This document shows positions 10,150 to 14,419 of a stretch of 64,000 nucleotides of DNA, piece after piece. The position numbers were made by a program, and so were the translations under genes. The notes under the pieces were generated by a model. The model was given only the letters and a program-made list of their open reading frames with translations, made no database searches and was not told the DNA's origin. Each line of letters starts with the position of its first letter. The first letter of the stretch is position 1. The stretch is from Providencia hangzhouensis. GTDB taxonomy: Bacteria; Pseudomonadota; Gammaproteobacteria; Enterobacterales; Enterobacteriaceae. Location: positions 2,914,001 to 2,978,000 of the forward strand of contig NZ_CP135052.1 in assembly GCF_029193595.2 (NCBI RefSeq), read 5' to 3'.

Positions 10150-10929
10150 ATGCTAACCATTACCAGTGAAACACTCACGCTGTGGCTAAGCCAAGGTTTT
10201 TACCCTTTCATACGCCTTTTGGCGCTGCTTGGTACAGCGCCCTTTTTTAATGAAAAACAGGCAATTACCAAAGTTCGTGTCGCTCTGGCCTTTTTTGTTG
10301 TGTTGATTGTTTCCCCACAACTTCCTGTCGTGAATATTCCTCTATTCTCTGCTATGGGATTATGGGTTATCGTGCAGCAAATGGTGATTGGTGTTGCGAT
10401 GGGGCTCACAATGCAAATGGCATTTGCTGCCGTACGTCATGCAGGGGAAGTGATTGGTTTACAAATGGGGTTATCGTTCGCCACCTTTTTTGACCCAACA
10501 GGTGGACCCAATATGCCTATTTTAGGTCGTATATTTAACGTCATCACCCTTTTATTGTTTCTCGCTTTCGATGGGCACTTGTGGCTTATTTATATCGTGG
10601 TCAATTCATTTGAACTGCTCCCAATTCAAACCGCACCATTAAATCGCGATGGTTTTTGGGTATTTACTCAATTTGCTAACACTATATTTATTAATGGGTT
10701 AATGCTAGCACTGCCGTTCATTACACTATTTCTCATTCTTAACCTTGCTTTGGGTATTCTAAACCGCATGACCCCGCAGCTATCGGTGTTTGTGGTCGGT
10801 TTTCCTTTAACGCTTACCATTGGAATTAGTATGTTAGGGCTGATTATTTCTATCCTCCCGCGCTATACCGAGCGTTTGGTCCACCAAGCTTTCGAGCAGT
10901 TATCGTTGATGTTTAATTTGTTTGTTTGA
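10150..10929 (+). CDS. fliR: FliR, export-gate membrane protein
   Basis: FliR completes the helical FliP5-FliQ4-FliR1 export channel. The 259 aa protein is very hydrophobic with several membrane segments and carries the family blocks PFIRLLALLGTAPFFNE, AGEVIGLQMGLSFATFFDP and LALPFITLFLILNLALGILN. It starts 2 bases after the fliQ stop. It is the last flagellar gene of this operon; an AT-rich gap and then a bacteriocin gene follow on the same strand. Confidence 0.97.
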   Translation: MLTITSETLTLWLSQGFYPFIRLLALLGTAPFFNEKQAITKVRVALAFFVVLIVSPQLPVVNIPLFSAMGLWVIVQQMVIGVAMGLTMQMAFAAVRHAGEVIGLQMGLSFATFFDPTGGPNMPILGRIFNVITLLLFLAFDGHLWLIYIVVNSFELLPIQTAPLNRDGFWVFTQFANTIFINGLMLALPFITLFLILNLALGILNRMTPQLSVFVVGFPLTLTIGISMLGLIISILPRYTERLVHQAFEQLSLMFNLFV

Positions 10930-11396
10930 GAATAGATAATTAATCAATTAATTAATGATTAATTTATTATCAAAGTAATTTTTCGAATTTAATAATTAAA
11001 GTAGCCCAAGAAAAACTGATTTAATTTCCTATTTGTAGTCTATATTAAAAGCAACTAGTATAGTTGTAAATATCACCTATTATTTGATACATTTCTAAAC
11101 TATCTAATGACAGTCTCAGTAAATACCCAATACTAAACCTAACTAAAATTTAGGTATAAAATTAATTTATTTTCGCAAGTAAATTTATATGCCAGTGTCG
11201 CTCTGAACATGTCACAATAGCCATTCTCTCACATCATTGACTTCTCATTAATATTTTAATAAACAAAATAAAAAATTATTTATTTAAAAATATAATTTTT
11301 TAATAAGTGTCATTATATTTTGTGTATTGTTTCATTTCTTTAATGAATGTATTTAAATATTGTAATTTATTTATATTTTCATAAAGAGGAAATCAG
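10930..11396. other. AT-rich gap between fliR and the bacteriocin gene
   Basis: This 467-base stretch has no credible gene. It is strikingly richer in A+T than the flagellar genes on its left. Right after fliR, AATTAATCA/TGATTAATT (10938-10946 and 10956-10964) forms an AT-only inverted repeat that might slow transcription but lacks GC pairs and a T tract. TTGACT at about 11237 is a possible -35 for the downstream gene, without a convincing -10 at proper spacing. I found no CTGT-N8-ACAG LexA core and no good CRP site. An AGAGGAAA Shine-Dalgarno precedes the ATG at 11397. Confidence 0.6.
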
Positions 11397-12722
11397 ATGA
11401 ATGATGTAATGGTAGTTACCCCACATAGTAGTTTCCGTGATAATTTGATATACGATGGAATCGCTCCCACAGCACATGGTAATATTTCGTTAAGTGATGC
11501 TGCTAATGTATATTGCATGAAACCTGACATGATCTGCCCTGTATGTGGTGAGCCGAAATGTATTTATTTCAGAAAACTATGCGAGGAATTATTAAAAAGC
11601 CCCAATGAGCAAGATGTAAAGAAGGCAATGGTAAAAAGTATGAGTGTTGGTGTTCCATTCGTTAGAGTTTATGATGAATACCGTAATAAAGTAGAAAACC
11701 AACTCGCTAATACCCTTCATAAGAATGGTATTATTCCTACTAAAAAAATTAGAAATGAAATGTTCTCAAAGTATATGAACCTATTTGATCTATTACATAG
11801 AAGAGTGGCGAATGGGAGGGTTCAATACATTGACAGGGATATTAAAAGTACAATATTTAGTAAAATAAACCCTAAAACGGCTACGGTTTTAACGTACTTA
11901 AATACTTTAGGTGGCACTAAAAACATTAAAAACTACCCAAAAATGATAGAGGCAATTAAAAAAGGCAACTTCAATGATGCTTCTAAAGAGTTTTACAAGA
12001 AGATGCCTCAAGATCTTGAAAGTTATTCAGCATTAGATACCCTTATTAATGAAGCTATAGCTAGAAGTCAAGCTGATAATGACTTAAAAAAAATTCAGAG
12101 TAAAGTTAAAAATGAGATTGAAAAATTACAAACAAATGAGGCAATTAAGTCTGCATCAGAAATAATGACAGATGTAGGTGAAAAAGCATCTAAGTTTTTT
12201 GGTGATAAATATAAGTCTACATCTAATAAAATCATTAATGAATTAAATACATTTAAAGGTAAAAAAATAAAAAACACAAATGATGCATTAAGAATTCTAG
12301 GAAAATCACTCAGCAATCCTTATCTTAACATCCATAAAAAAGATCTCCCCGCCATAACTCAAGCGATTAAGGCAGTTGACGGAAAAAAATTATCTGAAAA
12401 TTTATATAAATTAGGAACTACCTTTAAAATTGCTGATAAATTTTTAAAATTTGATAAAATAAAAAACAAAGTTGAAGAAGGTTTTGAAACTGGTGACTGG
12501 AAACCTTTACTTTTAGAAGTTGAAGCTATGGCTTTAGCTGGAGTAGCAACACCAATTGTATTAGCATTTACCGCTGGAAGTTTAAGCTTATTATTACCAT
12601 TTACCCTTTCAGCAACAGCCATTTCTGTAGCTACTATTGTACTAACAAGTGTGGTTACATCTTTTATTGATGCTAACTTTGCTGATGCGGTCAACAAAGA
12701 GCTTATTCCCTTGGCTAACTAA
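11397..12722 (+). CDS. Colicin B/A-type pore-forming bacteriocin with TonB box
   Basis: Predicted secreted toxin that enters a sensitive cell and depolarises its inner membrane. Residues 3-9 read DVMVVTP, close to the TonB box DTMVV of colicin B and pesticin, which suggests TonB-dependent import. Residues about 245-441 resemble the colicin A/B/N pore domain throughout: GEKASKFFGDKYKSTSNKI, TGDWKPLLLEVEAMAL, a long hydrophobic hairpin at about 379-422, and a polar end SFIDANFADAVNKELI like the FIDDKFVDELN of known colicins. Residues 25-215 match no receptor-binding domain that I recognise and hold five cysteines (40, 47, 50, 55, 62) including a CPVC. The 441 aa length is shorter than colicin B (about 511). 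No lysis gene follows. The convergent downstream gene is its immunity partner. Confidence 0.9.
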   Translation: MNDVMVVTPHSSFRDNLIYDGIAPTAHGNISLSDAANVYCMKPDMICPVCGEPKCIYFRKLCEELLKSPNEQDVKKAMVKSMSVGVPFVRVYDEYRNKVENQLANTLHKNGIIPTKKIRNEMFSKYMNLFDLLHRRVANGRVQYIDRDIKSTIFSKINPKTATVLTYLNTLGGTKNIKNYPKMIEAIKKGNFNDASKEFYKKMPQDLESYSALDTLINEAIARSQADNDLKKIQSKVKNEIEKLQTNEAIKSASEIMTDVGEKASKFFGDKYKSTSNKIINELNTFKGKKIKNTNDALRILGKSLSNPYLNIHKKDLPAITQAIKAVDGKKLSENLYKLGTTFKIADKFLKFDKIKNKVEEGFETGDWKPLLLEVEAMALAGVATPIVLAFTAGSLSLLLPFTLSATAISVATIVLTSVVTSFIDANFADAVNKELIPLAN

Positions 12723-12739
12723 ATTCTAGAAGAAAGAAA

Positions 12740-12764
12740 GGGGAAATTTTATCCCCATCTTTTT
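12740..12764. terminator. Shared hairpin between bacteriocin and immunity genes
   Basis: GGGGA (12740-12744) and TCCCC (12752-12756) form a short GC stem flanked by A-rich sequence on the left and TCTTTTTAATTT on the right, so it could end transcription from both directions. It overlaps the last codon of the immunity gene. Confidence 0.45.
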
Positions 12765-13282
12765 AATTTATATTTTACAGGTAAAAATATAAATGTATTT
12801 ATGGCCAAACAAGTAACAATGAATATAGAAATAAAAATCGCATAATAATAAATGAAAGAAGTAAATTCGAATGCAGAGATTGAACTTAATTTTCTATTTC
12901 CAGATGATATATTATAATCTAAGAAATAATTTATATATGTCATTATACCGATAATAAAAATAGAACTTAAATAACCAAAAATTAGCGTGAGAATTCCATC
13001 ATTGTATAACTTAAAGTGTTCTTTTTTTATTTCTATAGAGTTCCACATAAGTATGTAATATAACACAGAAATTAAAGGAGTTATTTTACAATATAATGCT
13101 GACATGTAGCTTTCATTTGGAAATTTATCTGAGTAAATTACAGGTAACTCACCCAACCAGTTATTAATATTAGTTACAGTAGAATTTGAGAACACATTTA
13201 GCCATATTGCAGCTAAAGGAATAGCTCCTAATAAAACAATAATAGTGAAAACCCATTTAGTATTTACCTTAAAAACTCGCAT
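12749..13282 (-). CDS. Colicin A-type immunity protein
   Basis: Predicted inner-membrane protein protecting the producer against the adjacent pore-forming toxin. The 177 aa protein has four hydrophobic helices at about residues 11-31, 66-84, 97-119 and 144-168, the topology and length of the colicin A immunity group (about 178 aa, four helices). The segment SALYCKITPLISVLYYILMW resembles DIYCKTAPFLALILYIL of the colicin A immunity protein, and PVKYKLKR at the end recalls its basic tail. AGGAG precedes the ATG. It is transcribed convergently to the toxin gene, the arrangement usual for pore-forming colicins, which allows constitutive immunity. No function was tested here. Confidence 0.87.
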   Translation of the reverse strand: MRVFKVNTKWVFTIIVLLGAIPLAAIWLNVFSNSTVTNINNWLGELPVIYSDKFPNESYMSALYCKITPLISVLYYILMWNSIEIKKEHFKLYNDGILTLIFGYLSSIFIIGIMTYINYFLDYNISSGNRKLSSISAFEFTSFIYYYAIFISIFIVTCLAINTFIFLPVKYKLKRWG

Positions 13283-13423
13283 AAATCTCCTATATCACAA
13301 AACACTCAAATGAGAATAATACATATTATCATTTAATTATTAAAGTTTATTGCGTAATAAAACATTAATTCAAATTTTTTACATCAAATCTATAACATAT
13401 TGTCTAACATAGCATTTTTAAAG

Positions 13424-13461
13424 CTCAAAAAAACCGCGCTTGGATCACTCCAAAGCGCGGT
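13424..13461 (-). terminator. Terminator after flgL
   Basis: On the minus strand, CCGCGCTTT and the matching AAGCGCGG form a strong GC stem (about 13433-13460 with GGA/TCC extending it) followed by a run of seven T. It ends the flgKL transcript before the bacteriocin insert. Confidence 0.85.
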
Positions 13462-13483
13462 GAGTAAAAAGAATATTAAATAA

Positions 13484-14419
13484 TTAACGGCTGCCGAAAA
13501 GTGACATGCTGTTTAAGTCTTTAAAAATACTTTGTGAGGCTTCAAACATCGCTTTTTCTTTATAATAATCTGTGGTGGTGCCAGTCCAGTTAGTTTCTAA
13601 CAACTCACTTTTGCGAGCCGCATTTTGAATCGAGCGCGTATCCGCTAAAAAATCTAATTTATCAATTTCTTGTAATTGTAAACCTTGCTTAGCTTCAATA
13701 TTAGAAATTTGATCTAATGCGGACTTGATGGCTCGGTTCGCTTCACCTAACTCCGCTTGCGCTTGGTCTAAATCTGCTTGTGGCGCGCCTTGCAATGGCT
13801 TTTTCAGTGACTCGATACCGGTGTTCAGCGCTTTAAAAATATTGACCACATTATTGCTATCGGTTTCAAACACTTGTGCGCCCGTGAAATAAGTCGTCAT
13901 CTCACGGTCACTCGCCACATTCTGCATAATCGCTTTATCGCCACCGTGATACAACACATCACCGTTAGCATCAATTTCAAAGGGTGGTTTATCTGATTTA
14001 AAACCTGCGAAAATATATCGACCATTCCCATCAGTCGAATTACCTAACGCCACTAATTGTTCTTTCAAACCCGTGAGTTGCTCAGCCAAAGTATTACGGT
14101 CTTTATCGCTTAAAGCACCTTGGTTTGATGCCTGAATAATGGTGGTATCAATTTGCGTCGTCACATCTGTCATCTGAGTCAAAATACTCATCTGCAGCGT
14201 CATTCCTGTTTTGGCAAACCCACGGCTGGCAACATACTGTTGATTTCGGTTCTCTGACTGGTTAATCCGCACCGCTTGCGAAGACGCTTGCGGGTCATCA
14301 GAAGGTTTGCTTACACGCTTACCAGAAGCTAATTGACTTCCTGCATCCATCCAACGCGCTTGAGCGCTATTCATATCTTGTAAGCGTTGGTGATAAATCA
14401 TGTTGGTACTTAAACGCAT
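13484..14419 (-). CDS. flgL: FlgL, hook-filament junction protein (HAP3)
   Basis: FlgL is the second junction protein between hook and filament and is exported by the flagellar type III system. The 311 aa product begins MRLSTNMIYHQRLQDMNSAQ, with the flagellin-like N-terminal helix and the motif ASGKRVSKPSDDPQASSQAV, and ends with the coiled C-terminal helix (MFEASQSIFKDLNSMSLF). Usual length is about 317. It lies 28 bases downstream of flgK; a strong terminator follows. Confidence 0.97.
   Translation of the reverse strand: MRLSTNMIYHQRLQDMNSAQARWMDAGSQLASGKRVSKPSDDPQASSQAVRINQSENRNQQYVASRGFAKTGMTLQMSILTQMTDVTTQIDTTIIQASNQGALSDKDRNTLAEQLTGLKEQLVALGNSTDGNGRYIFAGFKSDKPPFEIDANGDVLYHGGDKAIMQNVASDREMTTYFTGAQVFETDSNNVVNIFKALNTGIESLKKPLQGAPQADLDQAQAELGEANRAIKSALDQISNIEAKQGLQLQEIDKLDFLADTRSIQNAARKSELLETNWTGTTTDYYKEKAMFEASQSIFKDLNSMSLFGSR

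Follow-up and report, generated by a model that had tools for sequence, protein, structure and literature searches.

Why does the flagellar cluster of Providencia hangzhouensis hold a toxin-like gene and an immunity-like gene between fliR and flgL, and what occupied this place before them? In order to answer this question, we analysed a 64,000-nt stretch of the chromosome (NZ_CP135052.1, positions 2,914,001 to 2,978,000 of the forward strand; hereafter the window) and compared 24 Providencia genomes, labelled G000 to G023, with the window's own included as G000. Our reading, which we hold at a probability of roughly 0.8, is that the two genes are a TonB-type pore-forming bacteriocin and its immunity gene, and that they lie in a fliR-flgL slot where this lineage has lost a type I-F CRISPR-Cas locus. 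The gene pair is of a known kind; its address in a former CRISPR slot is the notable part. The features concerned are as follows (window coordinates).

10150 to 10929, + strand: fliR, left border of the slot
11052 to 11118, - strand: fliR-side scar, a putative decayed pair of degenerate I-F repeats (11052 to 11066, a stem, by eye; 11092 to 11118) with a 20-nt spacer-like stretch between them
11345 to 11364, + strand: LexA-box-like sequence, off-consensus (14/20, without the CTG...CAG ends), 33 to 52 nt upstream of the toxin start
11397 to 12722, + strand: predicted pore-forming bacteriocin gene, 441 aa (from ORF, Pfam, phmmer and hydropathy)
12740 to 12756, no strand assigned: stem-loop between the convergent genes, terminator-like on both strands
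12749 to 13282, - strand: predicted immunity gene, 177 aa, Colicin_im family, four hydrophobic segments (from ORF, Pfam and hydropathy)
13312 to 13330, + strand: Fur-box-like sequence (14/19), 30 to 48 nt upstream of the immunity start
13376 to 13423, - strand: flgL-side scar, a putative remnant of a CRISPR leader
13484 to 14419, - strand: flgL, right border of the slot

The predicted toxin gene and its immunity gene

Both reading frames, of 441 and 177 codons, lie exactly where the earlier note had placed them and in the orientation it gave. The pair is chromosomal, on a 4.5-Mb contig, in a gap of 2,554 bp between the stops of fliR (10929) and flgL (13484). As that note had also described, the block is AT-rich, with a GC content of 25–33% against about 40–45% in the adjoining flagellar genes.

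The toxin consists of a TonB-box-like motif (DVMVVTP, residues 3–9), a cysteine module (C40, C47, C50, C55, C62), a middle region (aa 63–210) and a pore domain of the colicin A/B/N type (aa 247–438). The sequence itself shows the domains and the immunity family and also, as treated below, the slot, the lack of I-F genes and repeats, and the remnants in the flanks. The pore domain matched Pfam Colicin (PF01024) at E 2.2e-9 and 37.9 bits (cut-off 23.4), over positions 11–152 of the 185-position profile. When PDB sequences were searched with phmmer, residues 247–438 aligned to 9–201 of the 204 residues of colicin A (E 2.6e-39), with colicins B, S4 and N close behind (E 2.9e-39 to 1.6e-37); colicins Ib, E1 and Ia and pyocin S5 were far weaker (E 3.5e-10 to 3.5e-9). 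The full-length, colicin A/B/N-like pore domain that had been proposed is thus borne out. By hydropathy only, it contains a hydrophobic pair at aa 371–389 and 398–416. The nearest relatives retain the TonB-box-like motif, recognised in the earlier reading as well (DVMVVTP, DVMIVTP, DTLVVTP), whereas it is looser in the Proteus relatives (SSLTVTP, GSLVVTP) and in the protein P0016 (SALSVEE); it presumably corresponds to the named TonB boxes. P0016 itself, a full-length colicin-like protein of the same N-terminal type, is recorded from a 77-Mb contig of the insect Chrysoperla carnea, which would reflect either transfer into the insect chromosome or contamination.

No Pfam model matched the N-terminal cysteine module in the window toxin. 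When the toxin was aligned with its relatives, including P0012, P0013, P0014 and the proteins of loci L101 and L102, residues V7, H10, C40, CPVCG...C and C62 were invariant. In Proteus and Photorhabdus the module is joined to Ia-type pore domains, and colicin Z has its core motif; the toxin scored 15.8 bits with the NCBIfam colicin Z model NF041263, under the cut-off of 300. Another combination was seen in the 332-aa protein P0006, whose N-terminal part resembles colicin Z (37% over 132 aa), has a TonB-box-like ETLVVWP and is joined to a colicin-A-type pore domain. A lysozyme-like middle domain, suspected by eye in the window toxin, found no support in Pfam.

The predicted immunity protein matched Pfam Colicin_im (PF03857) at E 1.7e-7 and 31.8 bits (cut-off 25.8), so that in the Pfam search suggested by the earlier note both partners scored over their cut-offs. 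Four hydrophobic segments were found once the hydropathy threshold was lowered to 1.3 (the weakest reached 1.44), in keeping with the four-helix, colicin-A-type immunity protein expected there, and among PDB sequences there was a single match, at E 0.36. The two genes stand on opposite strands with 26 bp separating their stops. It is true, as had been remarked, that each runs in the direction of the neighbouring flagellar operon. The same convergent layout was also found, however, at three sites away from fliR and flgL (L094/L095, the plasmid locus L013, and L101/L102), and gene direction therefore says nothing about co-transcription with the flagellar genes.

To judge from its sequence, the 441-aa protein is probably a functional pore-forming bacteriocin of the TonB-box type, accompanied by its immunity gene. 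That it might instead be a contact-delivered or otherwise secreted effector, of type V or VI secretion or a phage lysin, and not a diffusible bacteriocin, appears very improbable to us. The lack of a release gene nearby would suit such an effector, but the toxin contains no Pfam or NCBIfam domain of these systems; its nearest relatives share the TonB-box-like N-terminal motif, and the partner gene is a convergent immunity gene of the colicin A type.

Expression signals and related copies

No consensus LexA core (CTG-N10-CAG) was found within 200 nt upstream of the toxin gene, the best match being 14/20 at -52, although in this genome the core does stand before lexA and recA. A relative on the Photorhabdus plasmid pPAU1 (L014, around 4925) has a perfect core at -58 of its toxin gene, a similar distance, which is the respect in which the two sites are likened. 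All five loci compared (G000, G009, G001, G023 and Pectobacterium) have a Fur-like sequence of 14/19 ahead of the immunity gene, which starts 40–48 nt before the start codon (40–46 nt in the four relatives). Each of these matches was reached by 10–26 of 500 shuffles, which is suggestive only, and the five loci amount to about three independent cases, since the first three after G000 are closely related. The toxin promoter of the window has no such site, its best Fur-like match being 13/19, reached by 158 of 500 shuffles. Iron-linked control of immunity through Fur is suggested by these sequences.

We looked over the 17 ORFs of at least 25 aa in the gap by eye, and saw no lipobox that would mark a lysis gene, and no transposase or integrase. 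Searches for border repeats of a mobile element gave short, mostly AT-rich matches, and Rfam returned nothing at E up to 1 over 10900–13600. The lack of a lysis gene and of a consensus LexA box, which would account for production and release of the toxin, counts against the main reading, and the description of the pair as a "complete" killing system went too far.

Colicin pore domains or their remnants were detected by Pfam in 8 of the 24 Providencia genomes, at several sites, with apparently intact genes in G000, G005 and G009 only. A colicin-A-type pair lies between mdtI-like and ridA-like genes (names by eye) in G009, G001 and G023, and in G023 the toxin fragment adjoins a transposase ORF. 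The third site follows the RNase E gene (by eye) and holds a short toxin with the cysteine motif, which is intact in G009 (291 aa), split in G023 and a remnant in G007; over its pore, the 291-aa protein shows at most 52% identity with colicin Ia, 46% with Ib and 64% with a protein of a Hafnia plasmid. At two Providencia sites outside the slot (L094–L096 and L097–L099) the toxin was broken in most carriers and the immunity ORF open. Outside Providencia, pore-toxin loci stand between relA and mazG (both named by eye) in two genomes from a different genus, the relatives of which bear the name Proteus in the database. Although such pairs had been described as usually plasmid-borne, chromosomal ones are thus unexceptional here, and bacteriocin 28b of Serratia provides a precedent.

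These copies bear on whether the window toxin is merely a silent passenger, that is, a kept reading frame whose product has ceased to be made or released, selection acting on the immunity gene as protection against related bacteriocins. The missing lysis gene and the off-consensus LexA box would agree with this, as would the three other carriers of the type among the 24 genomes (G009, G001 and G023), where the toxin is interrupted, broken up (by stops or frame breaks in G009 and G001) or fragmentary and the immunity ORF is intact in every case; G016, too, has an intact E1-type immunity ORF beside a mere pore fragment. We nevertheless find it unlikely. A scan of a genome collection returned the toxin at 100% identity in one record, P. 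rettgeri YPR31 (G005), which belongs to the same species as the window's genome; both genomes of the species that were compared thus have an intact and identical toxin ORF. Its 90% identity cluster numbers 84 sequences, and that of P0002, an intact 438-aa database protein of the G009 type, has 41 members. Compared with the G009 copy, Ka/Ks was 0.14 for the toxin and 0.09 for immunity; for immunity it was 0.16 against G001 and 0.17 against Pectobacterium, and fliR and flgL gave 0.04, all of these being rough values because Ks exceeds 1. Moreover, group B colicins are not known to carry lysis genes. We thus keep to the reading of a bacteriocin that is probably functional.

The fliR-flgL slot and type I-F CRISPR-Cas

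Flagellar fliR (at least 73% identity) and flgL (at least 57%) were located in 22 of the 24 genomes, and since they were split over different contigs in G006, 21 gaps could be compared. A type I-F cas gene set occupied ten of them (G002, G004, G007, G008, G010, G012, G013, G017, G019 and G020). These calls were made from ORFs and the positions of Cas6f and Cas1; all six cas genes were named by NCBIfam in G008 only, and one cas reading frame was in pieces in G007, G012 and G019. The stretch with the gap in G021 had 17 repeats, with the cas genes about 130 kb away. The bacteriocin pair was present in two gaps, those of G000 and G005. A different type was found in another species, G016 (L079, 1037–2494), where the immunity ORF, of the E1 type (37.8 bits, cut-off 25), is intact and the Ia/E1-type pore domain is reduced to a fragment spread over two frames (63% over 60 aa in one, 62% over 21 aa in the other). 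Small ORFs were seen in G003, G009 and G014, and the gaps of G001, G015, G022 and G023 were nearly empty (353–398 bp). Hence the picture of a quiet flagellar interval into which a bacteriocin had broken gives way to one of a turnover slot, in which the window's pair sits between putative remnants of a type I-F locus.

Two other observations were made in the I-F carriers. In G010 (L090, 10672–19680) large ORFs stand beside the I-F genes in the slot and look by eye like an enterobactin-like catecholate siderophore cluster. G004 has a second, different Cas1 outside the slot (G004:C1:1050736-1051605, E 4.5e-97), which suggests another CRISPR-Cas type.

Neither Cas6f nor Cas1 nor an I-F repeat within three mismatches was present in the genomes of G000 and G005, which are 98.8% identical over 4,675 bp. 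A tree of the 21 genomes, made from fliR and flgL only and rooted at the midpoint, placed these two in a group of eight (support 96/98), the other six members of which all have I-F in the slot. With G008 and G012 they form a group of four (100/100), and G008 and G012 alone were joined at 89/76. The presence of I-F in the slot needs six changes on this tree, which was equalled by 126 of 500 label shuffles; with so patchy a distribution, the tree alone does not settle between loss and repeated gain. Elsewhere, single I-F repeats are left over in the gaps of three genomes without Cas1 or Cas6f, namely G001 (one repeat), G003 (three) and G009 (three), and this suggests that the type I-F locus was lost more than once.

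The flanks of the bacteriocin pair were compared with those of intact slots. In a first comparison with eight I-F slots, the similarity of the left flank was reached by 0 of 200 shuffles for G002, G013, G017 and G020 and by 3 to 7 in the remaining four; that of the right flank was reached by 0 of 200 for G013, G017 and G020 and by 14 to 138 in the remaining five. Two query stretches, 11060–11170 and 13370–13423, were picked after this comparison and run against nine I-F or array slots (G010 and G004 were left out) with 1000 first-order resamplings as shuffles. The first matched the fliR side with at most 3 of 1000 shuffles in six of the nine; G017 was marginal (30 of 1000), and G019 and G021 showed no similarity. 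The second matched the leader side with 0 of 1000 in three of the nine and with at most 28 of 1000 in seven, similarity being missing in G007 and G019. In the eight slots without I-F there was none on either side (lowest value, 335 of 1000). These results suggest that leader and repeat remnants stand at borders matching intact I-F loci, as seen in part of the comparisons.

Alternatively, the bacteriocin may have entered a gap that never bore CRISPR in this lineage, with the flank similarity being ordinary shared intergenic sequence. We regard this as rather improbable. The remnants are short, two of the nine I-F or array slots lack similarity on each side, and I-F is patchy on the tree, all of which such a history would accommodate. 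Against it, the similarity is confined to I-F or array slots, with 0 of 8 among the others. In addition, G002, which lies outside the group of eight, matches the fliR-side stretch (0 of 1000), whereas its CRISPR-less neighbours G009, G003, G022 and G023 do not. Loss of a type I-F locus from the slot thus remains our preferred reading.

The left scar becomes more telling through a small element that we found in intact slots. In seven gaps (G002, G007, G008, G012, G013, G017 and G020) two degenerate I-F repeats near fliR, identified by eye, enclose a spacer of about 20 nt, and a single such repeat was identified in G019 and G021 (loci L084, L077, L072, L073, L076, L075, L087, L074 and L086 for G002, G007, G008, G012, G013, G017, G019, G020 and G021; G010 and G004 were left out). 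These mini-arrays lie within about 420 nt of the fliR stop, beyond the far end of the cas operon and not at the cas promoter. In all nine examined, the fetched stretch contains one near-copy of the 17 nt that follow the repeat; it has one or two mismatches and lies on the fliR side, next to CC, which we take to be the type I-F target motif. Ten of the 12 mismatches fall at position 6 or 12 and the other two at position 11. The spacer varies between species, and the target varies along with it. In G000 and G005 the best spacer match within 200 nt had seven mismatches and was without CC; here the element seems to have decayed along with its machinery. Where it is intact, the mini-array might act as a guide for the Csy complex and so block transcription that would otherwise enter fliR, and it is possibly akin to the CRISPR-derived regulatory RNAs reportedly treated in Shmakov 2023.

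More broadly, fliR-flgL could be a slot for the exchange of conflict genes, in which CRISPR-Cas and bacteriocin pairs of different types replace each other, the swap in this lineage having been selected with immunity under Fur in place of an SOS-driven toxin circuit. We put this forward as a doubtful extension of the main reading. The use of the slot may reflect selection, or may merely mark a spot that tolerates insertion; with two kinds of bacteriocin occupation in 21 gaps, it may also be due to chance. Among the open-access papers searched we found none on type I-F CRISPR of Providencia together with a bacteriocin, on a chromosomal colicin-like bacteriocin of Providencia, or on TonB-type pore-forming colicins of Proteus or Providencia, where the matching literature concerned catheter biofilms. 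None of the matches listed, judged by title or start of abstract, dealt with a CRISPR slot between fliR and flgL.

Proposed action and comparison with known systems

From the features above we infer killing, the use of TonB, a receptor, iron-linked immunity control, and the order of loss and gain. The released toxin would use its N-terminal half to bind a receptor in the outer membrane of a related strain, and the TonB box (aa 3–9) would recruit TonB-ExbB-ExbD for crossing of the outer membrane. The C-terminal helical domain would then put its hydrophobic hairpin (aa 371–416) into the inner membrane and depolarise the cell. In the producer and its kin, the immunity protein is predicted to sit in the inner membrane and to block the pore.

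If this is correct, the locus offers a testable case in which an adaptive immune locus was lost and a bacteriocin pair stands at the same chromosomal address, with CRISPR-bearing sister species as controls. Providencia and Proteus are opportunistic pathogens, and the joining of the cysteine module to different killing domains may help in finding receptors and in predicting killing spectra in both genera.

Among known systems, the window's pair resembles colicins A, B, N and S4 (PDB 1col, 1rh1, 1a87 and 3few) in its whole-length pore domain and in a convergent immunity gene of the Colicin_im family, but the N-terminal half of the toxin had no match to them in the phmmer search and contains the invariant cysteine module. 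It also departs from the textbook colicin operon, being chromosomal and without a lysis gene or consensus LexA box. The pair on the Pectobacterium carotovorum plasmid Drgb1 (NZ_KP942676.1) is similar, with 67.9% full-length identity and a convergent immunity gene annotated cui; in contrast to the window's pair, it is plasmid-borne, and as recorded its toxin is interrupted by stops or frame breaks. The colicin-like proteins of Proteus (P0012 and P0013; loci L101 and L102) share the N-terminal layout. However, the pore of L101 is nearest to colicin Ia/Ib (E 2.3e-56, against 3.2e-17 for colicin A), its immunity protein is of the E1 type (PF03526), and the locus lies between relA-like and mazG-like genes (by eye). 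Unlike the window toxin, colicin Z (pColZ) is reported to have no TonB box, and the data of its authors indicate that it does not form pores (PMC6668396). Bacteriocin 28b of Serratia marcescens (Guasch 1995, cited in PMC13101503) is reported to be chromosomally encoded and colicin-like, and the window's pair is likened to it in these two respects.
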